Of a stretch of DNA of 31,676 nucleotides, positions 4,488 to 28,863 are shown in pieces. The stretch comes from a virus. The first letter of the stretch is position 1. Every line of letters starts with the position of its first letter. The notes beneath the pieces were generated by a model. The model was not told where the DNA came from, ran no database searches, and was given only the letters and a program-made list of their open reading frames with translations. Location: the IMG/VR virus record IMGVR_UViG_3300008113_000257, positions 1-31,676 of that record. One strand, given 5' to 3'. The translations under genes were made by a program, and so were the position numbers.

Positions 4488-7400
4488 TGTCAATTAAAAG
4501 AGTCAAAATATCATCAATCGTAGATACTCAATTTCCTCTATATGTTAGAGAAGAGTATCCTTTAATATCCGAATTTATATCCGAATATTATAAATCACTG
4601 GATAATAGTGGATCGACATACGATATTTTACAGAATATAGACCAATATATAAAATTGGATCATATAACAAATTTAATTGAATCAACTACTCTTACTTCGA
4701 ATTTAGATATAATATCAAATGAAATACTAGTATCTTCGACAGAGGGATTTCCAGAAAATAATGGAATTATAAAAATAAACGAAGAGATCATCTATTATAA
4801 ATCAAAAAATCCAACTACATTTCTTGAGTGCATTAGAGGATTCAGTGGGGTAACTTCATATAAAAATTCCAACAATCCAGAAGAGTTGGTCTTTTCCGAA
4901 TCATCTAGCAGTGAGCACCAAAAAGATACTACAGTAGAAAATCTAAGTGTATTATTTCTAAAAGAATTTTTTGCAAAATTAAAAAAACAATTTATACCAG
5001 GATTTGAGAATAGAGAGTTATATAAAGACGAAAATAAAAAAGTAAACGAAAAGAATTTTATTGTACATTCAAAGGATTTTTATTCCACAAAAGGAACTGA
5101 TAGTTCTTTTGAGATCCTGTTTAATGCAATATATGGAGATTTAGCTAAAGTAATAAAACCCAGAGATTTTCTTATTAGACCATCAGATGCCAACTATAAG
5201 ATAACAAAAGACATAGTTGTAGAGTCAATAGTAGGTAATCCTATAGAATTATATAATCGCACATTATTCCAAAAACAATCTCAGGGATTGGCTGAAGCTT
5301 TTGCTACAATTACAAATGTAGAAGAGATCATAAGAGACCAAAAAAAGTATTATATTTTGAGTCTAGATTATGATTATGATAAAGATGTGAGCGTTAGGGG
5401 CAGTATCTTTGGTGATTTTGCTATATATGCAAAAACAAAAACATTAAATCATACAAAAATTCAATCCAATACATTAACAGTAGATTCCACTATAGGATTT
5501 CCCCATAGTGGAGAGCTTGTAGTAAGAAGTTCACAAGGAAATGACTTAATCATCTCATATAATTCCAAAAACAACAATCAATTTCTTGATTGTAATATCG
5601 AAGAGGACATCGATATCTCAGAAGATGTGAATCTAAATGTTTATGCTTACTCTCTCATAAATGACCAAGAAGTGAGAGTTAGAATTCTCGGTGTAATCAG
5701 AGACTTAGAAAGTTTTTCTGGGAGTAAATACCACGAAAAGGGAGAAATAATAAATTACAAAACTTTAGGTAAAGCATATGATAATTTTAGATATAATGAT
5801 TGGATATTAGACATTCCAAATAAGCATTTGGTGAGTAAATTCGAAAAATTTGGATTAGACCAACTTCTAATTTTTACTTATGATGTCACTTTCATAAATC
5901 CATTAGATGAGGTATACATTCAATTTTTTGACGGAAATGACCAAAAAATAAAAGAAGATATATTTTCCGTAATTCAAATATCACAGGATAAAAAATCATT
6001 TTATGTTTCAAATCAATATAGTATTACAAAAATATATTATGTAAGAAAAGCACTAAGATTATATAATGAAATTATTAATAATGTACAAAATGTCTATGGT
6101 GATGTACAAGATAATGTTTATATTACTGCACAAGGAATACCAGATTATATTGATCCAAATATAGAAAAAAGAAATTTTTCTATTGATATTTTTGGTACAT
6201 TACAGCCAATAGAGAACTCTAAAGTTGGAATCTCTACAATATTGAATAATTCCAATTTACCAATAAAATTAGAACAAAATCACGATTTTAAGAATGGAGA
6301 TTCTGTTGTCTATGTACAAAATCCAGATACTTATGAGCTACAAAATGGCGATACAATTAATTTGAATATTTTTTCTGGGTTAAATCAAAACGAGGTATAT
6401 TATACAGAAAATGTAGATGATGACGAATTAAGACTATTTAAAAATAGATCAGACATATATTTTTCAAGATATAGTCCCATTACATTTAATAGAATATATT
6501 CTTCTAGAAATTTAAAAGAAATATTATATTCTGATTTGGATAAAATAGAGTTATTAGCCAGTAATTATTTTTTCCAAAAAAATGAATTTGTTATAATATT
6601 CGACGACACGAAAAATATAGAAGTTTGGTATTATATTTACAAAGAAAATGCATGGGAAAAAATCGACTCTCAAATTTCTGGGGGATTATATCCAAAAACT
6701 TACTTAACAGAATCAAAGGAATTAAAGGAAATAAAAAATATTGATTTGATAAAAAAAATATCATTACCAGAACAAGTCGATGTACTAGAAGAGACGACTC
6801 CAGGAACAACTGGTATTTTGATGAATGGAGTAGAAATATTAAATTATAAAACAAATAATTTTCTATATTATGGAAACATAGAAAAAGTTGATATAGTTTC
6901 CAATGGTGAAGATTATGACATAATAAATTTACCTACAATAGAAGTTTCTCCTGGATTATCAACAGCAAATGTTGCAAAAGTATATCCAGAAGTCAATGGC
7001 ATATTGGAAAAAATTGATTTGTTAGATGGTGGTTTTGACTATATTGAAGAGCCAAAAATAAAAGTATTAGGTGGAAATGGGTCGGGGGCTCAAGCTAAAG
7101 CAAATCTAATTACATTTACTCATGAAGTAGAATTTATCCCTTCTATTAATTTTGTCAACTTAAGTACTAATACTATATCATTTTCTACTTATCACAAATT
7201 TAGAGACTATGAGGAAGTAATATATGAAACAAATGGAAATTCTGCTATTGTAGGACTAGTTACATCTTCCACATATTTTGCAACAGTAGAAGACGATTAT
7301 ACAATAAAGTTATACGAAACCAAAATAAATGCCTTGTCTGGGCTCGAAATAAATCTTACTTCATATGGAACAGGAACCCAAAAAATAGTAGCAAAACAGA

Positions 7401-10400
7401 AAAAATCAAAAATTGGTTCAATTTCTATCATTAACCAAGGAAAAAATTACAGAAATAACTATGTTTCAGTCCCTTCGTCTGGAATAAACACATATAGAAA
7501 TGCCATCGTAGCAAATAATCATGGATATTTGACTGGCGATGTTGTGAGTTATGTCTGTACTGGAATAAATCCAATAGGATTTAGCTCTTCGACATATTAT
7601 GTGAATAGAGTAGATGAAAATGAATTTCAAATATATCCAGTTGGTGTCGGATCGACAGCAAAAGATGCATACTTCAAAACAAATCAATTTTTAAATCTTA
7701 TAGATTCCGGAATAGGAACTCACATTTTTAGACATGAGCCAATCTCAGTTGAAATAGATGGGTTAACTGGCATATCGTCTTATTCTAAAGAATTACATCA
7801 AGCAAAAATTATTCCTGTTTTTAGGGGAAATATTACAAATGTTTATGTTGAGAATGGTGGAATTGGCTATGGTTCTTCCGACATAATAAATTATAAAAAG
7901 CAACCAAATTTCAATATAAAAATTGGAAAAAATGCCCAATTACAAGCAAATATTTTAAATGGGGTAGTAAAAGAAGTTTATGTGCTCAATGAAGGATCGG
8001 ATTATTACTCAATTCCGGATTTATTTGTATCTGGAACTGGTACAGGATGCATATTGAGTCCAGTACTAGAAGATGGGAAAATAAAAGGAGTGATAGTTGT
8101 AAGTGGTGGATATGGATATGAACAAAAAAATACTAGCATAGAAATAGTAACATACGGAAAAAATGCTACCTTTGAAGCAAAGATAAAATCGTGGCAAATA
8201 AATTATGCTTCTAGAATATTAAATTCAAATAATTTAAATTCACCGGACGATGGTGTTTTATACTTTAATGAGTATGATGCCATAAAATATTGTCATGTTT
8301 ATTGTCCAAATAAGTTGCGTCAGAAAATATATTCAAAATTCTTAGACGAAAGAGGAAACACAATCGTAAGACCAGACTACGAAAATTCTATTTCTACTAT
8401 AAAATACCATTCTCCCATTATTGGATGGGCATATGATGGGAATCCAATATATGGTCCATATGGTTACGATGATCCAAATATCGTTGGAAAAGTGAGAAAA
8501 ATGAAATCTGGATATAAGTTAAATCCGACATTAGATCTTGATACTAGACCACCAGAAAAAATAAATGATAAATTTATTTTTCCCAATGGATTTTTTATTG
8601 AGGATTATGAATATATTGGAAATGGTGATTTGGATGAATTTAATGGAAGGTATTGCATTACACCAGAATACCCAAATGGAACTTATGCTTACTTTTCGAC
8701 TCTATCTGCAGATGATGATTTTGTTCCGGAGTTCCCATATTTCATAGGAAATTACTACAAATCAAAAAAAATAGATCACAACTTCCAACCAAATATTTCA
8801 CAAAACACTTTTGATTATTTTTCGACTAGATTATTAAGAAATACTTATTTTTATTTTGTTGACTCCGAAAATTCTAGTTACGATTTTCTATCTAATCCCA
8901 ATAAAGAAATAAGTCAAAATTCAAAAATTGTTTCGGTCCAATACTCATCACTAGATTCTATTGGTATTTTGACTTCGGGGGAAAATTATTCCGTAGGGGA
9001 TTCCATAAATTTTGATAACTTGGGAACAGAAGGAACTGATGCTAGTGCAATAGTCGGATCAGTAGAGGGGAAAAAAATATTAGAAATAAAAAATGACAAT
9101 TATTCAATTTCTGATGTAGAATTAGTTAGAATAAAAAATTCTCCTTTTGTTCTTGGTTTGTCTACTGCTCCACATCTTTTGGAAGATTTTGATTTCGTAT
9201 CAATAGTTGGAAATAACGATCTTTCCATATCAAATAAAATAAATCAGTATTCTCAAATAGGCGTTAGCTCCAATTCTTTACTTCTATCTTCTGGAATAGG
9301 AGATGCGTCTCAGACTGGAATTATTACAGACTTTTCAGTTATTGGAATTCTAGATGAGTCATATATTATTGAAAATGATTACTATAAAATAGAGGACGAA
9401 ACAGTAAAGATACTCAGAATACATCCAAATGATTTAAAAATTACTGTTTTGAGAGATCCGATTGGTGCTGCGCACACTGCAACTACAAAATTAACAGAAT
9501 TGACAAGAAAATTTTATTTTAATAGTGTAGATGGATATGCTTCAGAAAATAGAAATAGAGAAATATACTTCGATCCAAAAAAAGTAGTTGGATTTGGCAC
9601 AACTGCCAGTTCTTTGGTAGAAGTGTATTATTCTGGGATAGGGACGACATCGATATCAATTTCCCCTGGCAATTTATATTTAAAAAACCATAACTTATCA
9701 GATAACACAAATTTAAATTACTACACTAACGGTGGAAATTCAATCCAAGTTTCAAATGGGTCCACAACATTTGAACTCGACCAAATCACATCATTATACG
9801 CAATTAAGGTCTCGGACGATTTCATAGGAGTATCTAGTACTAGAGTGGCAATAGGAACTGAATTAAATTATGTAAGTACGGTAACAAATAAGTATCCATT
9901 TTTATATTTTGTTGGTTATGGAACAAGCGAAAATCATAGTTTTAGAGTAAATAATAATACAGTAAGGGCAAAAATACAAAAAAATATTTCCACAGTTTCT
10001 ACTGCGTCAACTCATGGATTGAATTTGGGCGATCGAGTTAATTTGAATGTAATTTCTGGAATTTCGACCACAATAAAAATTAAATATAACGATAGAAATA
10101 GAAGATTGATTTCGAGAGAAAAGCAATTTTCAGGAATTGATACATCAAATAGTATATTTACTATACCAAATCATGGTTATTATACAGGACAATCGTTAAT
10201 TTACAATTCAAATTTGCCATCCCCAGAACTTGATGATGATTCAATTTATTATGTAAGTATAGTAGATGGAGATAGATTAAAGCTATCGAAGAGTTATCAC
10301 GATGCTTTCATTTCTGATAAACCCATCAATATAACTGAATCTTCTTTTGGGAACTTGAAAGAAATAAATTCAAGTTTAGATATCATAGTAGGCCAAAAAA

Positions 10401-12361
10401 TAATTTTTGATTTATCTGATTTTAGTTTATCTTTCAATGACGGACTACAAAATAAGTCGGCATTTAGTTTTGATTTGTATAAAGATCCAAATTATAATGA
10501 AAAATATTATTATAATGAAAATGGAATCTTGGAAGTAATTAAAACGGGAAATGTTGGTATTGATAGTGGAGCTAGATTGGAATTAAACACTACAGAATTG
10601 ACTCCTATAAAATTATATTATCGATTAACTCCAGTAATTGATAATAGCCTACCAGAAATAAAGAATGAAATCTATATTGATGATACAATAATAAAAAATA
10701 ACAGCGTAAATATTTTTAGTAGTGAATATTCTGGGGTTCACATTATTACTGGAATTGGCTCCACAGCATTTAATTATCAATTACAATATTTACCAGAAAT
10801 AGAAAAATATGATGTAAATAATTCTTTTATGAGATATTCCACTAATTCAAAGACAGCGTTTGGTGGAATATACGACATAAAAGTAATATCTGGTGGCAGC
10901 AAATATAAAAAATTACCTGGAATAACCACAATAACAAGCAATTATGGAAAAAATGCTATAATTTTTCCCATTAGCTCATCTATTGGAAAAATTAAATCTA
11001 CAGAAATAAATGATATTGGATATGATTATTCGATTGATCCAACAATAAGACCAACAGTAAATTTCCCTACTGTTGTGAAAATAGACCCATTTTCTACCAT
11101 AGATTCTATAGTATGCACTTACATTGGAAAAGATTACAATTATTCTCCGGACTTATTGGTTGTAGATCAAATAACTAATGAAGTCGTAAATGACATAATT
11201 TTACAATTTGATTATATTAGTGGCTCAGTCTTAATAATCAAAAATTCAAATGGTTTTAGTAATACTGAGCCAAAAATTATACCCATTAATAACTCAAATG
11301 GAGTTGGAATAAATTCTTTATCCTATGATCCCCTTCTAAAAAGAGTTACCGCATATCTAGAAAAAGAATATACAGACACAAATTCACTTCCTATTTCTAT
11401 AAATGATAAAGTATTAGTAGAAAATACATCCATAATAGAAACGGAATCTAATTATATTGGCTACAATTCAAGTGAATATGAATATAATTATTTCACCATA
11501 ACTGGAATAACCACATCAATTGGTGACAATAAAGCTTATGTATATTATGATATGACTGACTTTTTATCTGACGCGAAACAACTAGGAACATATAATACTA
11601 TAAACTCCAAAGGATCTATCATTCCAGAAAAGAATATACCAAAATTTAAGACTACAATTAAACTGAATTCATATTTGGCCGGAGAAACAGTAGAATCAAA
11701 TAGTTCATATGGAGTAGTTAATAATTGGAGCGACAAAACTGGTTACGCAAAAATACAAACAATAAGTAATTTTAATGTCAATTCATTATTGATAGGAAAA
11801 ACATCTGGGGCCATAGGAAAAATAACAGAAGTGATACAGTCGGAATCATCTTATAACATTGATTATTATTCTATTAGAAATAAAGGTTGGCAAACTACAA
11901 CTGGATTCCTAAATCAAAATAATCAGCGTATACCAGATAACGATTACTATCAATATTTTTCATATTCTGTCAAATCTAGAATACCACTCGAAAAATGGAG
12001 TGAAATAGTAGATTCTACTACCCATACAGTGGGCTTTAAGAAATTTGGAGACCTATCAGTAGAATCCGATGCAATAGGAATCAGTGGAATTTCGACAACT
12101 CAAGACCAAGGATCTTATAATGCAATATCTGATCTAAATACCGTTATAGACTTAGAGTGTAAATATGATTTTGATCTTGGAATTGAGTCAAATGTATTTA
12201 ATTTGAATGGTCAACTTTCATCCGACGAAATTGCATTTAATTCTACTAAATTACAAGATCACTCTCAATCTATTGGTAATAGAGTGCTAACAATAGATGA
12301 TATTAGTAGCCAATTTAATACGACTCAAAGATCAACCCTTGTAACTGCCATCAATATTTAA
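4487..12361 (+). CDS. Giant baseplate wedge protein, gp7 position, with YHYH-like domain
   Basis: A 2624-aa virion protein in the place of T4 gp7 (1032 aa), which initiates wedge assembly. Residues 1-50 and about 150-250 (FFAKLKKQFIPGF, KDFYSTKGTDSSFEILFNAI, then PRDFLIRPSDANY) match a domain I recall at the N-terminus of large marine myovirus structural proteins. Residues 71-145 are an RG/Ig-E module with GFPENNGIIKINEEIIYY. About ten GGxGY repeats follow near residues 799, 841, 976, 1117, 1161, 1200, 1492, 2128, 2170 and 2205. NHGxxxGD modules lie near 593, 1007 and 1892. Residues about 1255-1430 form a YHYH-like domain (GWAYDGNPIYGPYGY, then NGRYCITPEYPNGTYAYF). There is no signal peptide. 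Naming it gp7 rests on position; the baseplate role is inferred. Confidence 0.7.
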   Translation: MSIKRVKISSIVDTQFPLYVREEYPLISEFISEYYKSLDNSGSTYDILQNIDQYIKLDHITNLIESTTLTSNLDIISNEILVSSTEGFPENNGIIKINEEIIYYKSKNPTTFLECIRGFSGVTSYKNSNNPEELVFSESSSSEHQKDTTVENLSVLFLKEFFAKLKKQFIPGFENRELYKDENKKVNEKNFIVHSKDFYSTKGTDSSFEILFNAIYGDLAKVIKPRDFLIRPSDANYKITKDIVVESIVGNPIELYNRTLFQKQSQGLAEAFATITNVEEIIRDQKKYYILSLDYDYDKDVSVRGSIFGDFAIYAKTKTLNHTKIQSNTLTVDSTIGFPHSGELVVRSSQGNDLIISYNSKNNNQFLDCNIEEDIDISEDVNLNVYAYSLINDQEVRVRILGVIRDLESFSGSKYHEKGEIINYKTLGKAYDNFRYNDWILDIPNKHLVSKFEKFGLDQLLIFTYDVTFINPLDEVYIQFFDGNDQKIKEDIFSVIQISQDKKSFYVSNQYSITKIYYVRKALRLYNEIINNVQNVYGDVQDNVYITAQGIPDYIDPNIEKRNFSIDIFGTLQPIENSKVGISTILNNSNLPIKLEQNHDFKNGDSVVYVQNPDTYELQNGDTINLNIFSGLNQNEVYYTENVDDDELRLFKNRSDIYFSRYSPITFNRIYSSRNLKEILYSDLDKIELLASNYFFQKNEFVIIFDDTKNIEVWYYIYKENAWEKIDSQISGGLYPKTYLTESKELKEIKNIDLIKKISLPEQVDVLEETTPGTTGILMNGVEILNYKTNNFLYYGNIEKVDIVSNGEDYDIINLPTIEVSPGLSTANVAKVYPEVNGILEKIDLLDGGFDYIEEPKIKVLGGNGSGAQAKANLITFTHEVEFIPSINFVNLSTNTISFSTYHKFRDYEEVIYETNGNSAIVGLVTSSTYFATVEDDYTIKLYETKINALSGLEINLTSYGTGTQKIVAKQKKSKIGSISIINQGKNYRNNYVSVPSSGINTYRNAIVANNHGYLTGDVVSYVCTGINPIGFSSSTYYVNRVDENEFQIYPVGVGSTAKDAYFKTNQFLNLIDSGIGTHIFRHEPISVEIDGLTGISSYSKELHQAKIIPVFRGNITNVYVENGGIGYGSSDIINYKKQPNFNIKIGKNAQLQANILNGVVKEVYVLNEGSDYYSIPDLFVSGTGTGCILSPVLEDGKIKGVIVVSGGYGYEQKNTSIEIVTYGKNATFEAKIKSWQINYASRILNSNNLNSPDDGVLYFNEYDAIKYCHVYCPNKLRQKIYSKFLDERGNTIVRPDYENSISTIKYHSPIIGWAYDGNPIYGPYGYDDPNIVGKVRKMKSGYKLNPTLDLDTRPPEKINDKFIFPNGFFIEDYEYIGNGDLDEFNGRYCITPEYPNGTYAYFSTLSADDDFVPEFPYFIGNYYKSKKIDHNFQPNISQNTFDYFSTRLLRNTYFYFVDSENSSYDFLSNPNKEISQNSKIVSVQYSSLDSIGILTSGENYSVGDSINFDNLGTEGTDASAIVGSVEGKKILEIKNDNYSISDVELVRIKNSPFVLGLSTAPHLLEDFDFVSIVGNNDLSISNKINQYSQIGVSSNSLLLSSGIGDASQTGIITDFSVIGILDESYIIENDYYKIEDETVKILRIHPNDLKITVLRDPIGAAHTATTKLTELTRKFYFNSVDGYASENRNREIYFDPKKVVGFGTTASSLVEVYYSGIGTTSISISPGNLYLKNHNLSDNTNLNYYTNGGNSIQVSNGSTTFELDQITSLYAIKVSDDFIGVSSTRVAIGTELNYVSTVTNKYPFLYFVGYGTSENHSFRVNNNTVRAKIQKNISTVSTASTHGLNLGDRVNLNVISGISTTIKIKYNDRNRRLISREKQFSGIDTSNSIFTIPNHGYYTGQSLIYNSNLPSPELDDDSIYYVSIVDGDRLKLSKSYHDAFISDKPINITESSFGNLKEINSSLDIIVGQKIIFDLSDFSLSFNDGLQNKSAFSFDLYKDPNYNEKYYYNENGILEVIKTGNVGIDSGARLELNTTELTPIKLYYRLTPVIDNSLPEIKNEIYIDDTIIKNNSVNIFSSEYSGVHIITGIGSTAFNYQLQYLPEIEKYDVNNSFMRYSTNSKTAFGGIYDIKVISGGSKYKKLPGITTITSNYGKNAIIFPISSSIGKIKSTEINDIGYDYSIDPTIRPTVNFPTVVKIDPFSTIDSIVCTYIGKDYNYSPDLLVVDQITNEVVNDIILQFDYISGSVLIIKNSNGFSNTEPKIIPINNSNGVGINSLSYDPLLKRVTAYLEKEYTDTNSLPISINDKVLVENTSIIETESNYIGYNSSEYEYNYFTITGITTSIGDNKAYVYYDMTDFLSDAKQLGTYNTINSKGSIIPEKNIPKFKTTIKLNSYLAGETVESNSSYGVVNNWSDKTGYAKIQTISNFNVNSLLIGKTSGAIGKITEVIQSESSYNIDYYSIRNKGWQTTTGFLNQNNQRIPDNDYYQYFSYSVKSRIPLEKWSEIVDSTTHTVGFKKFGDLSVESDAIGISGISTTQDQGSYNAISDLNTVIDLECKYDFDLGIESNVFNLNGQLSSDEIAFNSTKLQDHSQSIGNRVLTIDDISSQFNTTQRSTLVTAINI

Positions 12362-12367
12362 ATTACA

Positions 12368-16627: not shown

Positions 16628-16630
16628 ATA
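16623..16630 (+). promoter_or_regulatory. T4-like late promoter motif (gp8 unit)
   Basis: CATAAATA fits NATAAATA and overlaps the TAA stop (16625-16627) of the 1419-aa gene. It ends 18 bases before the gp8 ATG. It would start a unit containing gp8 and the DUF4815-type gene. Confidence 0.6.
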
Positions 16631-16648
16631 GTATCAAAAACAAGATAA

Positions 16649-18232: not shown

Positions 18233-18247
18233 TATATTAGGATAATC

Positions 18248-21200
18248 ATGCCACAAAAAACTAATTTAAATACTTATCCATATTTTGATGATTTCAATCC
18301 AGATAACATTTATCATAAGATATTATTTAAACCCGGTTATCCGATACAAGCTAGAGAATTAACTACGCTACAATCTATACTTCAAAATCAAATTGAACAA
18401 TTTGGTAATTGGGCATTTCAAGAGGGAAGTCCAGTCGTACCTGGTAGCATTACATATAATGACAGATATTATGCGGTAGAATTAAAAAACAATTTTAACG
18501 GAATTGAAATATTTAATTATCTTGATTCAATTACTGGAAAAACTATATTTGGACAATCAAGTGGAGTAAGAGCAAAAATAATAAGTTGCATAAATTCGCA
18601 GCAATCTGAAAGAAATAACACAACAATTTATGTAAATTATATAGATTCCGATTACGAAAATTCGGAGTATGTTGGATTTTCGGATGGTGAGAATTTACTT
18701 TTAGAAGAAGATACCATATTTACTATAAATGTCAACCCAGATTCATTTTTAACCATAAGAAGGGGAGAAGCTTTTGCTTCCACTATAGATGGAAATTGTA
18801 ATTCTGTTGGTTCTCAATTATCAGTTGCACCCGGAATATATTTTGTAAGAGGATACTTCGTAAAAAGTGATTCCCAATTTATAATATTAGATCAATATAG
18901 CAATTTTCCAAGTTATTCCGTTGGGTTTGAAGTAGTAGAAGATATAATCACATCAGAAGAAGATCAATTTTTAAATGACAATGCCAAAGGATTTTCAAAC
19001 TATGCGGCTCCAGGTGCTGATAGATTAGGAATATCGTTAGTTCTCACTAAAGTGGGGACTGGAGAGGAATTTCCAGATAATTTTATAAAATTACTTGAAG
19101 TAAATGAAGGAGTAATCAAAAATACTCAGACTGATCCTCGTTTAAATGAATTAGGAAAAGAACTAGCAAGAAGAACTTATGATGAATCGGGCGATTATTA
19201 TGTTAAGTCTCCAACTATATCAGCAAAAGAGACATTAAACAATTTATTAGGAAATGGTGGAATTTATAATAAAAATCAAGTAACTTTTAATGAAAATGTT
19301 CCAGATGAAAGCCTAGGGACATATCAAATTTCTCCTCTAAAAGCTTATATTAAAGGATATGAAGTAAATGTCATTTCTCCGGTATTTTTAGATTTCCAAA
19401 AAGCAAGAACAGTCAAGACACTTGAAAATCAAAGTGTAGTATATAATACAGGTTCAACATTAACTCTCAATAGAGTATATGGATCCCCAACAGTAGGATT
19501 TTCTACTTATACTTTAAGTTTAAGAAATGAAAGAGTAGGGATAAACTCTTCTTCCCCATCGGGGAAAGAAATTGGAATAGCAAGAGTTTATGATTTTTCA
19601 CTGGAATCTGGATCATATGATTCTTTGATACCGAATACAAATCAATGGGACATATCTTTATATGATGTACAAACTTATACAGAAATAGGAATAAATGAAG
19701 TAATAAGTCTGAATGCCCCATCATACATAAAAGGAAAATCTAGTGGGGCGAGTGGATTTTTACGATTTACCGTTTCAAATTCTGGGATACTGACCGCATA
19801 CAATATATCTGGCAATTTTATTTCAGGTGAAAAATTAATTTTTAATGATGTAGAAAACGAAAACACTAGAGTTTCAACTTCCATTACATCTTATACAATA
19901 GACAATGTAAAATCGCTATACGGTTTAGTTGGCACATCTTATACTTTTTCTGCAGATACTGTACAAACCACAAAAAAACAATTTACAAATGTAGAGATTT
20001 CTCAAATAGATAGTATTTTAGGCATTTCTACTGCAAAATCAAATATCCCAATTTTTTCTGGTGTTGTAAACAAAGGTGATTTGGTATCATATACCATTCA
20101 AGGAAAAACATATCCAAGTTATGCGAAGGTAAATAATGTTACTGCGACTACATTAACTCTAAGTGGAGTTACCACCGTAATCGGAGTTTGTGATGGCGAA
20201 TTGCCGCAAACGAATGCATTAATAACCGACTTCAAGTTATTAGGAACAAAGCGTGTAGCATCGGAAAATGAAAGTTTATATACAAAACTCCCAAAAGATA
20301 TCATCAGTGATGTCGATTTAACCAATTCCAATTTAACAGTAAAAAGACAATTTGAAGTAACTATAACATCAAATTCTACAGGAAATATTTCTGCTAACGA
20401 AGATGAAACTTTTTTACCCTTTGATGAAGAAAGATATGTATTAATTACAGAAAATGGGATAACAGAATCTTTAACTAGCGATAAATTTGATTTAAATACT
20501 TATACTAGTTCTGGTGGTCTCACAATAAAATTTAATGGGCTGTCGGTCACAAATAGTGCTGCCAAATTGATTGCTACACTCAATAAAACTAAAGTAAAAA
20601 CAAAACTAAAAAATAGATCTAAAATTAAATCCGTTGTAATTGATAAATCTAGACTAGTTGGCTCCGGTATTGGAGAAACTACACTCAATAATGGCTTAAT
20701 TTATGGTAATTATCCATATGGAACAAGAGTAGAAGATGACGAAGTATGTCTATTACAATCTGATATTACTAAAATTTATGGAATATTTGAAAAATCCGAT
20801 AGCTCTAATTTAAATTCGGATCCAACTACACCAAGAATGACTCTAAGTAGAATTAATGGAATATCTGGAACTATAGATGATATTCAACTGGGTGAGATTT
20901 TTATCGGAGAAGTCAGTAATGCTGTAGCAATTTATGCAGAAAAAGTAGATTTAGGAACAATAGGTTTTATATATCTAAATTCAAATTCATTCATTAGAGG
21001 GGAAACCATAACTTTCGAATCATCTCTGACAACTGCTACCGTAAATTCTACTATAGTTGGTGATAAAGACATAACATCGAGTTATATTTTAGATAATGGA
21101 CAAAGAAATACAATATATGATTATTCCAGAATTATAAGAAAACAAACATATAAAGAACCAATAAGAAAAATAAAGGTTTATTTCGAATCCGCATCATATT

Positions 21201-23794
21201 CTCCTTCCGATATTGGTGATATAACCACAATAAATTCATATCAAAATTTCGATTATTCCGAAATATCAAACATAAATCAGGTAAGAAACAGTGACATCAT
21301 TGATGTTAGGCCAAGAGTAATAAATTATCAAGTATCTGAAGGCGCTAGATCTCCATTTGAATTTATGTCAAGAATTTTTTCTGAGACATATAATAATGCA
21401 TCAAAATATGTCCTAGCATCAGATGAAAATATTAATTTGTCTTATTCTTTCTATCTACCAAGAGTAGACAAAATATTTCTTTCTAAAGATGCATTATTCC
21501 AATTAAAATCTGGGGAGCCAGCAGAAACCAATCAATTCCCATATTCGATAGATGATTCTATTGAAGTAGCTACAATCTATGTCCCAGCTTATACTTTTAA
21601 TGCCAGTGATGTTTCTATAACCAAAAAAGACTACAAACGCTACACAATGTCGGATATTGGAAAATTAGAAACTAGAATAGAAAATTTAGAATATTACTCC
21701 ACTTTGTCTTTATTAGAAAAGGAAACAGCAAATTTAGCTATATTTGATAGTAACGGAAATCCAAGATTTAAATCTGGATTTTTTGTGGATAATTTTACCA
21801 CTACTTTGTATCAACAAAAAGACACAATAGTGAAAAATAGTATAGATCCATCTAATAATGAGTTGAGACCAACCCACTACACAACAAATTGTGATTTAAT
21901 ATTAGGAGAATCTTCTATAATATTAAATAAAGATTTTAGTGTGGATATAAATTATTCCAATGATTTTATTTCTAGTAATATAAAAAAGACAGGAAATATA
22001 ATAACATTAGATTATGTGGAAGTAGTAGAAAATAATCAGCCCTTTTCTACTAGGGTGACCGAAGTTACTTCATATTCTACATCTGAATATGTTGGTGGAA
22101 TAACATTAAGCCCATCATCCGATACTTGGATAAGTCAGAGGAAGACACTAACGACTTTAACTGATTTAGATGGAGATATAACAGAAACTAGCAAACAAAT
22201 TACATTAACAGAAGATACCGAAGAAACTGGATTTTCCGCTCCTGTATGGAATGGCGGAAGTCTATGGACAAAAGACCTAATATCAACTGAACAAATTCCA
22301 TACATGAGAAAAAGGAATATAGAGTTTAGAGCCGAAAGAATGAAACCATACACTAGACTCTATGCATTTTTTGATAATGTAGATGTAAACAAGCATATAA
22401 TTCCAAAATTAATAGAAGTTCAAATGACAAGTGGTGTTTTCCAAGTTGGGGAGACTATCACTGCAAAAATAGAAGATTCATTTGGTTCTTGGCTTTCTAG
22501 TATAGGTACTGTACCAGATCTATTAAAACAAAAATTAAATAAGATCGGAATTAGTATAGAAACCATTTCTGATTTAAGAAACCTAACTTCAACCACAGAT
22601 TCTCGAAATAATCCAGCAACAAATATTATTTTAGATTATTTTAGATCCTCAAACTACGAATTGGAAGATGGGGGTAGTTTTAGACTTTGTACTCCAGATC
22701 ATAAGATTGGCCCATATAATAACCCAACCAAAAAATATAATACAAATCCATATGATAGAAGTCAAATTATACCTTCTTTATATTCCAGTACATCGAATAT
22801 TTTAAATATTGATACATTTAGTCTTTCATATCGAGGTCAATCGAATTTTTATGGAAATTTAAAGATTGGAATGAAATTGACTGGACAAACTAGTAATGCT
22901 ACTGCAATAATAAAGGATATACGATTAATTACTGATGATTCTGGGACTGTAATTGGATCATTTAGAATTCCAAATACAGATAATATTAACCAAATTGGTG
23001 ATAGATTTACATCAGGAGAAAAGGTATTTAGATTGACTAACAGCACAACCAATTCTCTAATTCCAGGAATTGTATTTACTTATGCATATGAGAAATTCTA
23101 TTCGCAAGGAACTCTCAATAATATAGAAGAAATAATTCTCTCTGTCAGTCCTCCTAGTTATGCTCCAGAAATATTACCCCCACCACCATCACCATCACCT
23201 TCTGCATCTCCATCTTATTATAGTCAGCCCGAACCAACTCCAAAGAGCGAAACGAAGCCTCCTGCGCCAATTCCTCCTACTGTGACGCCTATTCAGGTTG
23301 CATTACCACCAAAAGTAGTAGAAGTCAATAAAGGTGGTCCAGTGTATGCTAATGCGGCACAACAAAAAATAGTTAATGCATATAAGGAATTACATCCAAA
23401 TTCAAATGTAACCACTGCCCAACAAGTAGCAAGAAGATTGGATATAAAAATAGACACAAATCCAAGTGGAACAATACCAAAAAATGATGGCAACCAAATA
23501 GTAAAAGCTCTACAGCAAGCTGGAGCAAATGTAGTGAAAGGACCGGGATCTGCACCAAGACAAGATCCACCAAGACAAAATTCTCCAAGGCAAGATTCAC
23601 CAAGACAAAATTCTCCAAGGCAAGATCCCCCAAGACAAAATCCACCAAGACGAGATCCACCAAGGCAAGATCCACCAAGACAAAATCCTCCAAGGCAAGA
23701 TCCCCCAAGACAAAATCCACCAAGACAAGATCCACCAAGACAAAATCCTCCACCTTCTTCCTCTAGATCTGATAATAGTAACAGAAGAAGATGA
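18248..23794 (+). CDS. DUF4815-type virion structural protein with proline-rich repeat tail
   Basis: An 1848-aa protein, probably a peripheral baseplate or tail-fibre attachment component. Residues 1-65 are the DUF4815 signature: YPYFDDFNPDNIYHKILFKP, then ARELTTLQSILQNQIEQFGN. SxxGxxSGA-type modules occur at about 97-110, 495-540, 885-930, 1395-1410 and 1520-1600. Near residues 1135-1185 a helical region (GKLETRIENLEYYSTLSLLE) is followed by FKSGFFVDNF, and KPYTRLYAFFDNVDV lies near 1363; both are family hallmarks in memory. From about residue 1640 the chain becomes disordered and proline-rich, then a helical stretch (AAQQKIVNAYKEL) precedes 13 copies of PRQ(D/N)(P/S) at residues 1770-1834 and a basic tail SNRRR. 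AGGA at 18239-18242 serves as ribosome binding site. Confidence 0.8.
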   Translation: MPQKTNLNTYPYFDDFNPDNIYHKILFKPGYPIQARELTTLQSILQNQIEQFGNWAFQEGSPVVPGSITYNDRYYAVELKNNFNGIEIFNYLDSITGKTIFGQSSGVRAKIISCINSQQSERNNTTIYVNYIDSDYENSEYVGFSDGENLLLEEDTIFTINVNPDSFLTIRRGEAFASTIDGNCNSVGSQLSVAPGIYFVRGYFVKSDSQFIILDQYSNFPSYSVGFEVVEDIITSEEDQFLNDNAKGFSNYAAPGADRLGISLVLTKVGTGEEFPDNFIKLLEVNEGVIKNTQTDPRLNELGKELARRTYDESGDYYVKSPTISAKETLNNLLGNGGIYNKNQVTFNENVPDESLGTYQISPLKAYIKGYEVNVISPVFLDFQKARTVKTLENQSVVYNTGSTLTLNRVYGSPTVGFSTYTLSLRNERVGINSSSPSGKEIGIARVYDFSLESGSYDSLIPNTNQWDISLYDVQTYTEIGINEVISLNAPSYIKGKSSGASGFLRFTVSNSGILTAYNISGNFISGEKLIFNDVENENTRVSTSITSYTIDNVKSLYGLVGTSYTFSADTVQTTKKQFTNVEISQIDSILGISTAKSNIPIFSGVVNKGDLVSYTIQGKTYPSYAKVNNVTATTLTLSGVTTVIGVCDGELPQTNALITDFKLLGTKRVASENESLYTKLPKDIISDVDLTNSNLTVKRQFEVTITSNSTGNISANEDETFLPFDEERYVLITENGITESLTSDKFDLNTYTSSGGLTIKFNGLSVTNSAAKLIATLNKTKVKTKLKNRSKIKSVVIDKSRLVGSGIGETTLNNGLIYGNYPYGTRVEDDEVCLLQSDITKIYGIFEKSDSSNLNSDPTTPRMTLSRINGISGTIDDIQLGEIFIGEVSNAVAIYAEKVDLGTIGFIYLNSNSFIRGETITFESSLTTATVNSTIVGDKDITSSYILDNGQRNTIYDYSRIIRKQTYKEPIRKIKVYFESASYSPSDIGDITTINSYQNFDYSEISNINQVRNSDIIDVRPRVINYQVSEGARSPFEFMSRIFSETYNNASKYVLASDENINLSYSFYLPRVDKIFLSKDALFQLKSGEPAETNQFPYSIDDSIEVATIYVPAYTFNASDVSITKKDYKRYTMSDIGKLETRIENLEYYSTLSLLEKETANLAIFDSNGNPRFKSGFFVDNFTTTLYQQKDTIVKNSIDPSNNELRPTHYTTNCDLILGESSIILNKDFSVDINYSNDFISSNIKKTGNIITLDYVEVVENNQPFSTRVTEVTSYSTSEYVGGITLSPSSDTWISQRKTLTTLTDLDGDITETSKQITLTEDTEETGFSAPVWNGGSLWTKDLISTEQIPYMRKRNIEFRAERMKPYTRLYAFFDNVDVNKHIIPKLIEVQMTSGVFQVGETITAKIEDSFGSWLSSIGTVPDLLKQKLNKIGISIETISDLRNLTSTTDSRNNPATNIILDYFRSSNYELEDGGSFRLCTPDHKIGPYNNPTKKYNTNPYDRSQIIPSLYSSTSNILNIDTFSLSYRGQSNFYGNLKIGMKLTGQTSNATAIIKDIRLITDDSGTVIGSFRIPNTDNINQIGDRFTSGEKVFRLTNSTTNSLIPGIVFTYAYEKFYSQGTLNNIEEIILSVSPPSYAPEILPPPPSPSPSASPSYYSQPEPTPKSETKPPAPIPPTVTPIQVALPPKVVEVNKGGPVYANAAQQKIVNAYKELHPNSNVTTAQQVARRLDIKIDTNPSGTIPKNDGNQIVKALQQAGANVVKGPGSAPRQDPPRQNSPRQDSPRQNSPRQDPPRQNPPRRDPPRQDPPRQNPPRQDPPRQNPPRQDPPRQNPPPSSSRSDNSNRRR
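23555..23749 (+). repeat. Tandem 15-bp repeat encoding PRQDP/PRQNP
   Basis: Thirteen in-frame 15-base units encode PRQ(D/N)(P/S), with one PRR variant. Most units alternate GAT (D) and AAT (N), giving a higher-order 30-base period. Units differ at third positions (for example CCAAGA/CCAAGG, CCA/CCC/CCT), so the array is not a brand-new duplication. It forms the C-terminal tail of the 1848-aa protein. Copy number may vary by slippage. Confidence 0.9.
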
Positions 23795-23801
23795 TCATAA
23801 G

Positions 23802-23809
23802 AATAAATA
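23802..23809 (+). promoter_or_regulatory. T4-like late promoter motif (821-aa protein unit)
   Basis: AATAAATA fits NATAAATA. It lies 8 bases after the stop of the 1848-aa gene and 17 bases before the next ATG. It is the only one of the five that does not overlap a stop codon. It would drive the 821-aa gene, two tiny genes, gp13 and gp14. Confidence 0.6.
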
Positions 23810-23826
23810 CAAAAAAGGTAATATAA

Positions 23827-26292
23827 ATGGAAATTAGAAGTCCGTTAGCTCAATCATTCTATGTTGCTCCCGAAACGGGAATATTTGTAACTTCTGTTGA
23901 TTTGTATTTTTATTCTAAAGATCCATCACAACCAGTAACGGTACAACTGAGGCCAATGAAGCTGGGAACGCCGGATACTATTGTATATCCTGAAAGTGAA
24001 GTAACATTATATTCAAATGAAGTCAATATTTCCTCGAATTCTTCTGTGCCAACTACTTTTACATTTCCTTCTCCAGTATACTTATCTGGAGAAACATTTC
24101 ATTCATTGGTAGTAATTTCGAATTCTTCGGATTATAAAGTTTGGATTTCCAGATTGGGAGAATTGGATGCAGCAAGTTATAATGCCATAAATTCTAGGCA
24201 AATTTTTGTCAATAAACAGCCGGATTCTGGCTCTCTCTTTTTATCGCAAAGTGGATCAACATGGACAGCAAACCAATATGATGATCTGAAATATACCCTG
24301 CGCAGAGCAAGTTTTAACATTGTTGATGGGGGAGTTGTAAATTTTTATAATTCTGATTTGGACCAACAAGAAAATATATCAAAACTATTAAAAAACCCAT
24401 TAGAATTTAATGCGAAAAAAATCAGAGTTGGGCTATCAAAGACTGTATCGGACCCAAATTTATCTTTTGGGAACACTGTAATACAATCGATCACTAACGC
24501 AACTGGAAATTTTGTGGGGTATGGTGGATCAGCTTTCGGTGGTTTGACAATAATTGATGATGGAGAGGCATATGAAAATGGATACTATTCTAGTGTCCCA
24601 TTGATAAGTTTGACTGGGACTGGACAAAATGCAACTGCAAATTTAACTATAGCTAATGGAGTTGTAGTTTCTTCTGGTGCAACTATTTCTTCTGGTGGAG
24701 TTGGATATAAAATAGGCGATTTACTCACTATAAATGCACCAGGAACTAATAAATTAGGAAGAAATATGAAGCTGTCTGTTGCTAATATTTCAGCATACAA
24801 TGAATTAATATTAGACCAAGTACAGGGAAATTTTGAAACTGGTATTGGAAAAACAATACGATATACTAATAATTTGGGGATCACAACGGATTTAAATGGG
24901 AATGGATCAAACATATTGCTATCATCTGCTCCAATAGAAATACATGATGGCAAACACATAAAAGTAAACCATTATAATCATGGTATGCATTCTAGTAGTG
25001 ATGTGGTAAAAATTTCAAATGTAATTTCCGATTTGTCTCCAACAACTCTATTATTAAATTCTTATACGGAATCTTCAACTAATGACATTGTAGTAGAAAA
25101 CTCTTCCAATTTTTCTTCATTTGAGGGACTATCAGTAAATTCAAACAATCTTGGTTATATTCTAATTGGAAGTGAAATTTTATCTTATAATGAAGTTTCT
25201 GGAAATACCTTGAAAGGAATTACAAGAGGAGTCGATTCAACAAAAAGAGGAACTTATGAGTTGGGAATTTCTATATACAAATATGAATCGAATGGAATTT
25301 CCTTAAGAAGAATCAATACTACGCACAATTTATCTGATGTAACGACATCTGACCCAATAGGATTGGATTACTATAATATAAAGCTTTCAGTTGGGCCATC
25401 AAATGGAAAAGATAGGACCGTAGTTAGTCCACTTTATATAAAAGAAACAAAATCTTCTGGTGGAATGAGAGTAACAGCAACAAAAAATATACAATATGGT
25501 ATAATAATTCCAAATATACAAACTTTTTCTCCACCGAGAACAGAAATTTCTTCCGCAATAAGAACAGTAAGTGGAAAAAGTGTGGATGGAATAGAAACTC
25601 CATTTGTTGATCAGGGATTTGAGTCAATAAATTTAAATGCAACAAATTATTTGAGTTCACAGAGAGTTATATGCTCCACTTTGAACGAAAGTCAAAAATT
25701 ATCATTTTTGCCTGGAAATAAGTCTTTTAATTTGAATATGATTCTGGGATCTATTGATGAAAAATTGTCTCCAGTGATTTCTGCTCTCGATAGAACATCT
25801 ATAGTTCTCACTTCAAATAGAGTTGATAAAAAAATAGAAAATTATTCAACTGATGATAGGGTATCTACTCTGGAGGGGGATCCATCTTCATTTGTATATG
25901 CAACAAAACCAATATATCTAGAAAATCCAGCACAAAGTCTAAAGGTAATTTTATCTGCCTATGTAAATATATACAATGATATTAAATTGTTATATTCAGT
26001 ATCAAATGATAATAATTTAAAACTCAATTACTTCCCATTTCCTGGATATTTGAATCTGAATAATGGCATTACTATCGATCCATCAAATAATGATGGCTCC
26101 CCAGATACGAAATTAATTAAAACTGATGTATTAATATCAGACGGTTCTACTAATACTCCATTTGTCGATTATGAGTTCACAGCAGAATCTATAGGGCCAT
26201 TCAAATCATTTAGCATAAAAATCATAGGAACATCAGTAAATCAGACATATCCACCAAGAATTAAAGATCTTCGTGTAATTTCAGTAGTCTAA
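23827..26292 (+). CDS. Tail/baseplate structural protein (PLAQSF-type)
   Basis: An 821-aa protein starting MEIRSPLAQSFYVAPETGIF. Residues 5-110 form a beta domain with VDLYFYSKDPSQPVTVQLRP, TTFTFPSPVYLSGET and YKVWISRLGE; I recall this domain as typical of marine T4-like structural proteins, where it usually sits downstream of DUF4815 in one chain. GGxGY units lie at about 237-307 (IIDDGEAYENGYY, ISSGGVGYKIGD), an NHGx unit near 378 and an RG/Ig-E unit at about 419-498 (GYILIGSEILSYNE, LKGITRGVDSTKRG). The C-terminus (SIKIIGTSVN, PPRIKDLRVISV) is a family-like ending. It corresponds by position to the T4 gp9-gp12 fibre region, but no specific T4 ortholog can be assigned. AAGG at 23815-23818 is a weak ribosome binding site. 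Confidence 0.75.
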   Translation: MEIRSPLAQSFYVAPETGIFVTSVDLYFYSKDPSQPVTVQLRPMKLGTPDTIVYPESEVTLYSNEVNISSNSSVPTTFTFPSPVYLSGETFHSLVVISNSSDYKVWISRLGELDAASYNAINSRQIFVNKQPDSGSLFLSQSGSTWTANQYDDLKYTLRRASFNIVDGGVVNFYNSDLDQQENISKLLKNPLEFNAKKIRVGLSKTVSDPNLSFGNTVIQSITNATGNFVGYGGSAFGGLTIIDDGEAYENGYYSSVPLISLTGTGQNATANLTIANGVVVSSGATISSGGVGYKIGDLLTINAPGTNKLGRNMKLSVANISAYNELILDQVQGNFETGIGKTIRYTNNLGITTDLNGNGSNILLSSAPIEIHDGKHIKVNHYNHGMHSSSDVVKISNVISDLSPTTLLLNSYTESSTNDIVVENSSNFSSFEGLSVNSNNLGYILIGSEILSYNEVSGNTLKGITRGVDSTKRGTYELGISIYKYESNGISLRRINTTHNLSDVTTSDPIGLDYYNIKLSVGPSNGKDRTVVSPLYIKETKSSGGMRVTATKNIQYGIIIPNIQTFSPPRTEISSAIRTVSGKSVDGIETPFVDQGFESINLNATNYLSSQRVICSTLNESQKLSFLPGNKSFNLNMILGSIDEKLSPVISALDRTSIVLTSNRVDKKIENYSTDDRVSTLEGDPSSFVYATKPIYLENPAQSLKVILSAYVNIYNDIKLLYSVSNDNNLKLNYFPFPGYLNLNNGITIDPSNNDGSPDTKLIKTDVLISDGSTNTPFVDYEFTAESIGPFKSFSIKIIGTSVNQTYPPRIKDLRVISVV

Positions 26293-26293
26293 T

Positions 26294-26518
26294 ATGTATT
26301 ATAAAGTAAAAGGAAACCCAAACTTAGTTAGAGATAAAAACACAAATGCAATATTGAACATAAATTCAATTGAGTATGAAAACCACATAAAAGCAACTGA
26401 TACCAAAGAAAAAGAAAATTTTAAGATGAGGCAAATTGAGTGTGAAATTTCAACAATGAAAGATGATTTGAATTTAATAAAAACATTACTACTAGAAATA
26501 AAAAATGAATCCAGATAA
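26294..26518 (+). CDS. Conserved 74-aa phage protein preceding gp13
   Basis: A 74-aa protein starting MYYKVKGNPNLVRDKNTNAI. The N-terminal part (NPNLVRDxNTxAIxNxNSxEY) looks like a conserved small cyanophage protein. The C-terminal half (MRQIECEISTMKDDLNLIKT and following) is a predicted coiled coil. It starts 1 base after the previous stop and overlaps the next gene by 14 bases, so it is coupled in the neck operon. Function unknown; a trimerising or scaffolding coiled coil is possible but not shown. Confidence 0.75.
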   Translation: MYYKVKGNPNLVRDKNTNAILNINSIEYENHIKATDTKEKENFKMRQIECEISTMKDDLNLIKTLLLEIKNESR

Positions 26519-26669
26519 AATAATTCTAGAAGATTTTAATAAAATGTTTGAATACGAAAAATTATCTAGAGATATAGATAGTATAGATGATATAGAAATT
26601 GTTAAAAATTTTGCAAAGTCTTATATTAAGTTATACTTAAAGCAACAAGAAGTAGTATCTAAATTGTAA
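26505..26669 (+). CDS. 54-aa small conserved protein before gp13
   Basis: A 54-codon gene starting MNPDKIILEDFNKMFEYEKL and ending YLKQQEVVSKL. It fills the space between the 74-aa gene (14-base overlap) and gp13 (1 base from TAA to ATG). The pattern FEYEKLSRxID...VKNFAKSYIKLYLKQQEV resembles a tiny helical protein that I recall in the same place in T4-like cyanophages. It is probably soluble and all-helical. Function unknown. It is short enough to be missed by length-limited gene calling, but gap-filling and overlap support it. Confidence 0.78.
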   Translation: MNPDKIILEDFNKMFEYEKLSRDIDSIDDIEIVKNFAKSYIKLYLKQQEVVSKL

Positions 26670-26670
26670 C

Positions 26671-27486
26671 ATGGCACAACCTTCCACAAGACAAGAACTA
26701 ATTGATTATTGCTTAAGAAAATTGGGTGCTCCAGTTTTAGAAATTAATGTTGCACAAGAACAAATAGAAGATTTGGTGGATGATGCAATACAATTTTTTC
26801 AAGAAAGACATTTTGATGGAGTATCTCCAACTCTACTAAGATATGAAATCACACAACAAGATTTAGACAGAGCAAGAGGAAAAGAAGGAGTAGGGATAAC
26901 CACAGTTGCTGGAAATAAAACTTATGAATATAAAGAGACAGCAAATTATTTGCAAATACCTTCATATGTAATTGGAATAAACAAGATATTTCAATTTGAG
27001 GGTTCAAATAGTATTTCCAGTGGAATGTTCAGTATTAAATATCAATTGTTCTTGAATGATGTTTATTATTGGGGATCGACTGAATTATTGTCTTATTCAA
27101 TGGTGAAAACTTACTTGGAAGACCTTAATTGGTTGCTAACAACACAGAAACAGGTCAGATTCAATAAAAGAGAAGATAGATTGTATTTGGATATAGATTG
27201 GTCTAGTGTGACTGTAGGACAAACTCTTATAATTGATTGTTATAGGGCACTAAACCCAGCCGAATCAACAAAAGTTTGGAATGATTCATTTTTAAAGCAA
27301 TACTTGACTGCACTCATAAAAAGACAATGGGGACAAAATTTAATTAAATTTAGAGGAGTAAAACTTCCTGGAGGAATTGAATTAGATGGTAGACCAATAT
27401 ATGATGATGCCCAAAGAGAATTAGATATTATTATGGAAAGAATGTCTAGTACTTATGAGCTTCCTCCACTAGATCTCATTGGATAA
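26671..27486 (+). CDS. gp13: Neck protein gp13
   Basis: A 271-aa homolog of T4 gp13 (309 aa), which with gp14 forms the head-tail neck after DNA packaging. The N-terminus (STRQELIDYCLRKLGAPV, then IEDLVDDAIQFFQERHFDGV) is highly characteristic of the marine T4-like family. The later LNWLLTTQKQVRFNKREDRL, then YRALNP and FLKQYLTALIKRQWGQNL, are further conserved blocks. Unlike gp14 and gp15 it carries none of the shared repeat modules and is slightly shorter than T4. It ends 3 bases before gp14. No Shine-Dalgarno is obvious; translation is probably coupled to the preceding gene. Confidence 0.92.
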   Translation: MAQPSTRQELIDYCLRKLGAPVLEINVAQEQIEDLVDDAIQFFQERHFDGVSPTLLRYEITQQDLDRARGKEGVGITTVAGNKTYEYKETANYLQIPSYVIGINKIFQFEGSNSISSGMFSIKYQLFLNDVYYWGSTELLSYSMVKTYLEDLNWLLTTQKQVRFNKREDRLYLDIDWSSVTVGQTLIIDCYRALNPAESTKVWNDSFLKQYLTALIKRQWGQNLIKFRGVKLPGGIELDGRPIYDDAQRELDIIMERMSSTYELPPLDLIG

Positions 27487-27489
27487 TAT

Positions 27490-28863
27490 ATGTTAAATCC
27501 ATTTTTTCTTCAAGGATCAAAAACCGAACAAGGTCTAATTCAAGATCTCATAAATGAACAATTAAAAATATATGGAATAGATGTATATTACATTCCCAGA
27601 AAGTATCTAACCAAAAAAACAATTATAAAAGAGGTAATAGAATCTGAATTCGATAATGCATATCCCATTGAGGCGTATGTTGATACATACGATGGATATG
27701 AAGGTGCTGGAACTTTACTTACAAAATTTGGAGTTCAACCTTACACTGATTTGAATCTTATTATCTCAAAAGAAAGATTTGAAAATTATATTTCACCACT
27801 AATAAAAAATCAATCTAATGTCGAATTAGCGACAAGACCAAAAGAAGGAGATTTGATATATTTTCCTTTGGGTGATAGGTTATTTGAAATTAAATTTGTT
27901 GAGCATGAAGTACCATTTTATCAACTTCAACAAACTTATGTTTATACATTGAGATGCGAACTATTCAGATACCAAGACGAACTAGTTGATACTGGAATAG
28001 AATTCATAGATGATAATGTAGAGAAGCAAGGCTATATCCAGACTTTTGATATGATTGGTGCTGGAGTGTCCGCGACAGCAACTGCCACTATAGTAAATGG
28101 TGGCGTGACATTCGTAAAAATTACAAATAGAGGAGAAGGATATAAGTCTGCACCACAAGTAAAGTTTGGAATTCCAATTTCTGGGCAGACAGCAACTGGA
28201 ATAGCAACAATGATTGGAGGAATAGTTGATTTGTGCGAACCTGATTCTAGTTTGTTTAGAGTTCAGGGAGTAGAAATTACAAATGCTGGTTATGGGTACA
28301 CTTCCCCCCCAACTATTGCTTTTTATGGTGGTGGGGGAAAGGGAGCAACGGCAGTGGCTTCCATTGGAGATGGGATAGTGGGTAACATTTCAGTAACAAA
28401 TGGTGGATCCGGATACACAATTGAGCCAACAGTACAATTTATTGGAATTTCTTCAATATCTGCACAAGCGAGAGCAATAATAGAAAATGGAGTTGTTACA
28501 AGAATTGGAATTATAACTACTGGAATTGGATATACGGAAAATCCAATTATCCAAATACAAAGTCCTTATGTAGTTGGATATGGTACATATAGATATAATG
28601 AGACTGTCATCGGCTCCCAATCTGGTTACACTGCAAGAGTTAAAGCTTGGAATTCTACAACAAACAAATTAGAATTGTCTAATATAACAGGTGATTTTAT
28701 CCCAGGAGAAACATTAGTAGGATCAGCATCTAGTGCAACTTATGAAATAAAAATTGTTACAGCCGATAATCTAATCGATCCGTTCGCTCAAAATAAAGAA
28801 ATACAAGAAGAAGCAAATGTAATAGTTGACTTTAGTGAAAAAAATCCATTTGGAACTCCTTGA
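27490..28863 (+). CDS. gp14: Neck protein gp14 with inserted GGxGY repeats
   Basis: A 457-aa homolog of T4 gp14 (256 aa), partner of gp13 in the neck. Residues 1-190 are the family core: NPFFLQGSKTEQGLIQDLIN, then YYIPRKYLT, FGVQPYTDLNLIISKERFEN, EGDLIYFPLGDRLFEIKFVE and LRCELFRYQDE. Residues about 205-360 hold four GGxGY units (TNRGEGYKSAPQVKF, TNAGYGYTSPPTIAF, TNGGSGYTIEPTVQF, TTGIGYTENPIIQI) absent from T4. Residues about 379-427 are a SGY...GETLVGSASSA module. The core resumes at the C-terminus with DPFAQNKEIQEEA and DFSEKNPFGTP. The size excess is thus explained by an internal repeat insertion. The TGA overlaps a late promoter. Confidence 0.92.
   Translation: MLNPFFLQGSKTEQGLIQDLINEQLKIYGIDVYYIPRKYLTKKTIIKEVIESEFDNAYPIEAYVDTYDGYEGAGTLLTKFGVQPYTDLNLIISKERFENYISPLIKNQSNVELATRPKEGDLIYFPLGDRLFEIKFVEHEVPFYQLQQTYVYTLRCELFRYQDELVDTGIEFIDDNVEKQGYIQTFDMIGAGVSATATATIVNGGVTFVKITNRGEGYKSAPQVKFGIPISGQTATGIATMIGGIVDLCEPDSSLFRVQGVEITNAGYGYTSPPTIAFYGGGGKGATAVASIGDGIVGNISVTNGGSGYTIEPTVQFIGISSISAQARAIIENGVVTRIGIITTGIGYTENPIIQIQSPYVVGYGTYRYNETVIGSQSGYTARVKAWNSTTNKLELSNITGDFIPGETLVGSASSATYEIKIVTADNLIDPFAQNKEIQEEANVIVDFSEKNPFGTP

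Follow-up and report, generated by a model that had tools for sequence, protein, structure and literature searches.

The question raised by this locus is what a short GGxGY repeat is doing in several virion proteins that are encoded close together. The window (the whole stretch of viral DNA analysed, an entire IMG/VR-type record of 31,676 bases) encodes, in order, a gp25-like protein, gp6, gp7, gp8, a DUF4815/VrlC-type protein, gp13, gp14, gp15 and gp16, a gene order known from T4-like cyanophages; the gp14 of Synechococcus phage B23 is the closest among the phage records searched (62% identity). The repeat family is present in five ORFs of the window (span 6881-28584), as the initial annotation had proposed for five proteins, although these ORFs represent only four gene families. 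gp7 is divided into two adjacent ORFs, 4487-12361 (2624 aa) and 12368-16627 (1419 aa), which match consecutive stretches of phrog_2885; it is a single protein of 5,195 aa in P-SSM2 and also one ORF in S-SM2 and Bellamy, while in phage B23 it is split in the same way as here. The VrlC/DUF4815-type protein is split into 18248-23794 (1848 aa) and 23827-26292 (821 aa), which jointly match phrog_358; its P-SSM2 counterpart is a single protein of 2,506 aa, and several relatives encode it undivided, at about 2,500 aa. As the gp7 and VrlC-type ORFs are each one split gene, the repeat concerns the gp7, gp8, VrlC-type and gp14 families. The 1848-aa half of the VrlC-type protein ends in a proline-rich RQDPP/RQNPP tail (23555-23764).

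The repeat unit is about 38 residues long, with the consensus V-x-S-I-x-I-T-N-x-G-S-G-Y-T-S-x-P-T-V-T-I-x-G-x-G-x-x-G-A-T-A-x-A-x-I-x-x-G. The pattern by which it was initially described, (I/V)-x-x-(G/N)-G-x-G-Y and its continuation, had no exact match in the window proteins. In AlphaFold models of gp14 and gp8 each unit forms three strands in the same order (V-x-x-I-x-V-T-N-G-G-S-G-Y, then P-T-V-x-I, then G-A-T-A-x-A-x-I-x-N-G), and the comparison of predicted folds thus bore out a common unit. The alignments feeding both models were of low diversity. For gp8 the pLDDT was 80 (about 90 in the repeats) with a pTM of 0.76; for gp14 the repeats had a pLDDT of mostly 80-92 with a low overall pTM of 0.41. 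With such alignments and such a pTM, only the local fold of the unit is trusted. RTX calcium-binding repeats (nonapeptide GGxGxDxUx) were considered and rejected as a match: the unit, GSGYTSxPTVTI, has no Asp at the RTX position and its period is about 38 aa.

To relate the copies to each other, a profile trained solely on the gp14 repeats of 80 IMG/VR relatives was run on the other window proteins. It scored 17.1 bits (E 4e-6) against the 2624-aa ORF, 14.3 and 10.3 bits (best E 3e-5) against the 1419-aa ORF and a weak 8.1 bits (E 0.003) against gp8, all above the top score of 7.3 bits among 1,717 locally shuffled or reversed decoys; the 821-aa protein as a single sequence was not significant (2.6 bits). 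Comparison of the gp14 repeats with protein families by hhalign gave 95.7% (9e-9) for gp8, 95.6% (1e-8) for the 821-aa protein and 99.3, 99.7, 89.4 and 97.2% for four gp7 segments, while six control segments from the same protein set all gave 0.4% or less. A broader unit profile was consistent with these results, although it is not independent evidence for gp8 because near-identical relatives of gp8 may have been part of its training set. In BFVD, the gp14 model brought up gp8 homologues as well as proteins of the gp7 type; the gp8 model retrieved the latter weakly. None of 14 T4 proteins (gp6 to gp19) contained a unit at 5 bits or more, in agreement with the earlier statement that T4 gp8 and gp14 lack the repeat. 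That one module is common to neck and baseplate proteins, at different places on the virion, is well supported by the sequence profiles and the two AlphaFold models.

gp14 carries the four units that had been counted initially, although the last has no third strand, in the following arrangement:

28036-28101, plus strand: lone AxAxA strand opening the array, aa 183-204 (gp14-only profile, 9.4 bits; model strands 183-189 and 196-202)
28102-28221, plus strand: unit 1, aa 205-244 (profiles; model strands 205-213, 223-226 and 236-243, pLDDT about 90)
28258-28374, plus strand: unit 2, aa 257-295 (profiles, model)
28375-28491, plus strand: unit 3, aa 296-334 (profiles, model)
28492-28584, plus strand: unit 4, aa 335-365, without the third strand (gp14-only profile, 14.4 bits; model)
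28585-28773, plus strand: module C, a second shared beta-module and part of a barrel, aa 366-428 (profile; hhalign, 94.7%; fold match)
28774-28860, plus strand: C-terminal tail, probable counterpart of the gp15-binding arm of T4 gp14, aa 429-457 (tail profile)

The first 168 residues match the core of T4 gp14 (hhalign, 99.8%), a head closure protein (Hc2, PF11649), with 36% identity over 157 columns; the corresponding Pfam match is PF11649 (Virus neck protein; E 6.5e-28, aa 2-176). T4 gp14 has no GGxGY units, only a short arm where the window protein probably has its insert, and the insertions account for most of the extra length of gp14, as had been suggested. The tail profile matched T4 gp14 residues 213-229 (E 0.001, clearly the best among the 14 T4 proteins), while pairwise shuffle tests were marginal (p 0.06 for the window sequence and 0.017 for the family consensus). 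In T4, residues 178-256 form an arm that docks on gp15 (PMC12270204). Given the resemblance of the tail to part of this arm, the insert most likely lies within it, at the head-tail joint; the four units and the small barrel would then split the arm, coming after the neck barrel and before the C-terminal tail. The unit count is four in 80 of 80 IMG/VR relatives and in 8 of 8 reference genomes. The repeats have diverged faster than the core of gp14 (pairwise identity 53% versus 75%), with almost no gaps, as expected of a part that is exposed yet structurally constrained.

In gp8 a single copy had been described; there are in fact two, the first of which is degenerate and has no GGxGY core, and a further insert of another kind:

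17279-17398, plus strand: degenerate unit 1, aa 211-250 (hhalign of gp8 aa ~207-267 to gp14, 96%; strands 213-218, 227-236 and 242-247)
17402-17521, plus strand: unit 2, aa 252-291 (profiles, hhalign; strands 253-260, 268-270 and 285-289)
17711-18124, plus strand: second insert, barrel-like and not GGxGY, aa ~355-492 (T4 anchors; fold match)

The protein is recognizable as gp8 by Pfam (PF09215, E 2.3e-9) and by the fit of its model to T4 gp8 (1n7z; Z 18.1 over 264 residues, rmsd 3.2). At the insertion point T4 gp8, which has no GGxGY units, has about 52 residues, and sequence anchors on both sides place the pair of units within the stretch equivalent to T4 residues 213-264. gp8 has 193 more residues than its T4 counterpart, and the repeats contribute only about 83 of these, against about 132 for the second insert by the T4 anchors; the repeats were therefore wrongly credited with most of the extra length of this protein. 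In its fold the second insert resembles translation-factor barrels weakly (Z about 4).

The copies in gp7 are more numerous and less uniform in strength. About ten had been counted in the 2624-aa ORF, where seven are placed by profile-profile alignment and about three are weak; in the 1419-aa ORF two of the reported three are supported and the third is weak. Both copies in the 821-aa protein are placed by family-level hhalign.

6881-7000, plus strand: unit in the gp7 N part (2624 aa), aa 799-838 (hhalign of aa 790-880, 99.3%)
7007-7114, plus strand: unit in the gp7 N part, aa 841-876 (17.1 bits, E 4e-6; hhalign)
7403-7486, plus strand: possible unit in the gp7 N part, aa 973-1000 (weak; broader profile, 6.9 bits)
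7829-7963, plus strand: unit in the gp7 N part, aa 1115-1159 (hhalign of aa 1105-1240, 99.7%)
7964-8077, plus strand: unit in the gp7 N part, aa 1160-1197 (profiles, hhalign)
8078-8203, plus strand: unit in the gp7 N part, aa 1198-1239 (broader profile, hhalign)
8951-9061, plus strand: possible unit in the gp7 N part, aa 1489-1525 (weak; gp14-only profile)
10865-10981, plus strand: unit in the gp7 N part, aa 2127-2165 (8.6 bits; hhalign of aa 2120-2200, 89%)
10991-11071, plus strand: unit in the gp7 N part, aa 2169-2195 (second half of the same hhalign match)
11096-11221, plus strand: possible unit in the gp7 N part, aa 2204-2245 (by eye)
14636-14773, plus strand: unit 1 in the gp7 C part (1419 aa), aa 757-802 (10.3 bits; hhalign, 97.2%)
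14774-14869, plus strand: unit 2 in the gp7 C part, aa 803-834 (14.3 bits; hhalign)
15179-15292, plus strand: possible unit 3 in the gp7 C part, aa 938-975 (weak; hhalign 26% to gp14 and 53% to gp8)
24538-24660, plus strand: unit 1 in the 821-aa protein, aa 238-278 (hhalign 95.6% to gp14 and 96.8% to gp8; phrog_460, E 5e-4)
24661-24801, plus strand: unit 2 in the 821-aa protein, aa 279-325 (second half of the family-level match)

A YHYH domain (PF14240) in the same gp7, at aa 1304-1407, is separate from the repeat units and does not overlap them.

Related phages also carry the unit in gp6, tail fibres and the DUF4815 protein. On divergent T4-like contigs (gp6 ORFs L144-L158) a pair of units lies near the C-terminus of gp6; the gp6 of the window has none. 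Bacteria and archaea were scanned with a two-unit consensus, using one genome per species (84,980 species). The matches listed come from many phyla, often from giant proteins, the largest count among them being 38 units; they include probable prophage or contractile-system proteins (a tail tube, a major tail protein, a capsid cement protein and two tail sheaths) as well as SusD outer-membrane proteins, proteins with multicopper-oxidase matches and giant secreted proteins. In three SusD-family proteins (L169, L195 and L233) the pair, at aa ~440-525, lies inside the span matched by SusD_RagB. A tail sheath protein of Nostoc foliaceum (L236, 4744-6855) has six closely similar units, flanked by the N-terminal and C-terminal parts of the sheath.

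A pair of units, of 75-80 residues, is the commonest array outside gp14, accounting for 12/13 in gp6 and 13/15 in gp8. Among the bacterial matches listed, pairs are also in excess, which is partly built in by the two-unit query of the scan, and arrays of more than two units favoured even numbers (33 versus 15; p 0.013 in a weak test). On these grounds the domain would be the pair. The module probably folds independently. No Pfam family matched at its curated threshold (the best E, 0.1, came from 1 of 18 units), and no NCBIfam model matched within the repeat regions of the window proteins. A sequence search of the PDB with the unit profile gave just a chance-level match to FlgG (E 0.93); when the complete gp14 and gp8 models were compared with PDB structures, the core domains and the barrel found counterparts but the repeats had none that was clear. 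A literature search, largely of open-access papers, found no description of the repeat.

The closest parallels are the Ig-like domains of tailed phages (Big_1, Big_2, I-set and fn3; Fraser et al., 2006, as cited in PMC9022992), which according to that account occur in fibre, baseplate, tail tube and capsid proteins and are thought to be exposed, perhaps touching cell surfaces. Like them, the GGxGY unit is a small beta module found in unrelated virion proteins and optional to their core fold. It differs in its length of about 38 aa with three strands in the models, in its arrangement in pairs or tandem arrays, and in its presence also in neck gp14, gp8, gp7, gp6 and the sheath; the Ig-like fold is a seven-strand beta-sandwich of about 90 residues. 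Among the 18 units and the six window proteins examined, no unit matched an Ig-like, Big or fn3 family of Pfam, and an fn3 match in L198 falls at the C-terminal end (best stretch aa 2094-2171), outside the units. Judged by its sequence, the unit is not a member of the Ig-like family.

Nonetheless, placement is similarly optional in unrelated classes of virion protein (gp14, gp8, gp7, gp6, DUF4815 protein, fibre, sheath, tube and cement), and the carriers appear to share a surface location rather than a function or neighbours. As this is the distribution known for phage Ig-like domains, we conclude, with a probability of roughly 0.6, that the unit is a promiscuous surface module that works like those domains and was anciently inserted in unrelated surface proteins, in between the conserved segments of their cores. 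These homologous three-strand modules, mostly paired, would most likely furnish the virion, at several of its levels, with a rigid beta surface that faces outward, while leaving assembly undisturbed. Exposure of the units on the assembled virion is plausible, given that in gp8 and gp14 they are insertions flanked by conserved segments, and that elsewhere they lie in sheath, tube, cement and fibre proteins. As to the selected benefit, our guess, a tentative one, is low-affinity adhesion to extracellular or cell-surface polymers; the initial annotation had suggested that the unit may be sticky or bind carbohydrate. A more doubtful extension is that the pair, as yet without a name, corresponds to the virion Ig-like domain and serves bacteria, archaea and phages alike as a promiscuous beta-domain for adhesion; in T4-like cyanophages it would coat both neck and baseplate and make many weak contacts with polysaccharide of cell surfaces or the environment. 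Sharing of domains between unrelated phage proteins is described in PMC10684548, by which neck proteins can be mosaic; the neck example given there is the exchange of receptor-binding and pectin-lyase-like domains, and neither head closure nor tail sheath proteins came up when its main text was searched for such terms.

If the unit is indeed such a surface module, a short uncatalogued element helps to explain why cyanophage neck and baseplate proteins are much longer than their T4 counterparts, and connects many unannotated 'structural proteins' across unrelated phages. PHROG or BLAST matches between neck, baseplate and fibre proteins may then reflect the shared insert alone. It would also be a concrete, deletable surface element, the effect of which on adsorption to Synechococcus or Prochlorococcus could be tested.

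The main rival to this reading is a purely structural role, in which the units would be joints or spacers bracing the neck (gp14-gp15) and the baseplate wedge (gp7, gp8 and gp6) and would bind nothing outside the virion. The constant, nearly gap-free complement of four gp14 units could, in its fixed count and spacing, equally mean a structural joint; further, the T4 gp14 arm lies against gp15 (PMC12270204), and gp7, gp8 and gp6 of the T4 wedge touch each other (PMC3004832). However, the unit is also found in proteins without such neighbours, namely sheath, tail tube, cement, fibre, SusD and giant secreted proteins, and copy numbers in gp7 and in bacteria vary widely. We consider a solely architectural function less likely than the surface role.

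The initial annotation had also held that the module spread by recombination, which stands for the deep past only. Recent and continuing spread among the proteins of one genome might be suspected because several genes of one operon share the module, and the near-alike tandem units of the Nostoc sheath suggest that local duplication does occur; but gp14 and gp7 units of one genome (31.5% identity) resemble each other no more than those of different genomes (33.3%), and for 26 of 36 gp14 units the nearest neighbour is the positionally equivalent unit of another phage. With the fixed number of four units in gp14, these comparisons make recent spread very improbable: the spread of units between these genes is old, with no recent exchange seen. 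Least probable of all is convergence of G/Y/A-rich beta sequence without common descent, for which speak the shortness of the units and their degeneracy in gp7 and the 821-aa protein, but against which the gp14-only profile and hhalign clearly part the copies from local shuffles and control segments and two models have the same ordered three-strand pattern.

The GGxGY unit is not the only shared element in these proteins. Module C (GxxSGAxAxV...GxFxxGE), besides its copy in gp14 (28585-28773), occurs in the 1848-aa protein at 19730-19843 and 20906-21025, and weakly in gp7; starting from gp14 aa 366-428, a profile matched the 1848-aa protein with 29 and 45 bits. The fold of module C resembles translation-factor barrels, though weakly (Z about 6). 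A relationship of module C to gp8 aa 375-440 was rejected, hhalign reaching only 11%. A further module, NHGxxTG...YYVxxVDxxxFxL, is present at least three times in gp7 (7193-7312, 7517-7633 and 10169-10285). By eye, GFPxxGxI...RGxxGT seemed to be shared by gp7, the 821-aa protein and gp15; its profile failed to generalize and it was not retained. Overall, the virion proteins concerned appear mosaic, made up of several small beta modules.

Two neighbouring neck proteins differ from T4 in length. gp13 (26671-27486) has 271 aa compared with 309 in T4 and, from these lengths, may be without the fibritin-binding part of the T4 protein (190-239), in which case the gp14 insert could be an alternative neck ornament. 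gp15 (28907-29911), at 334 aa compared with 272 in T4, is about 60 aa longer.
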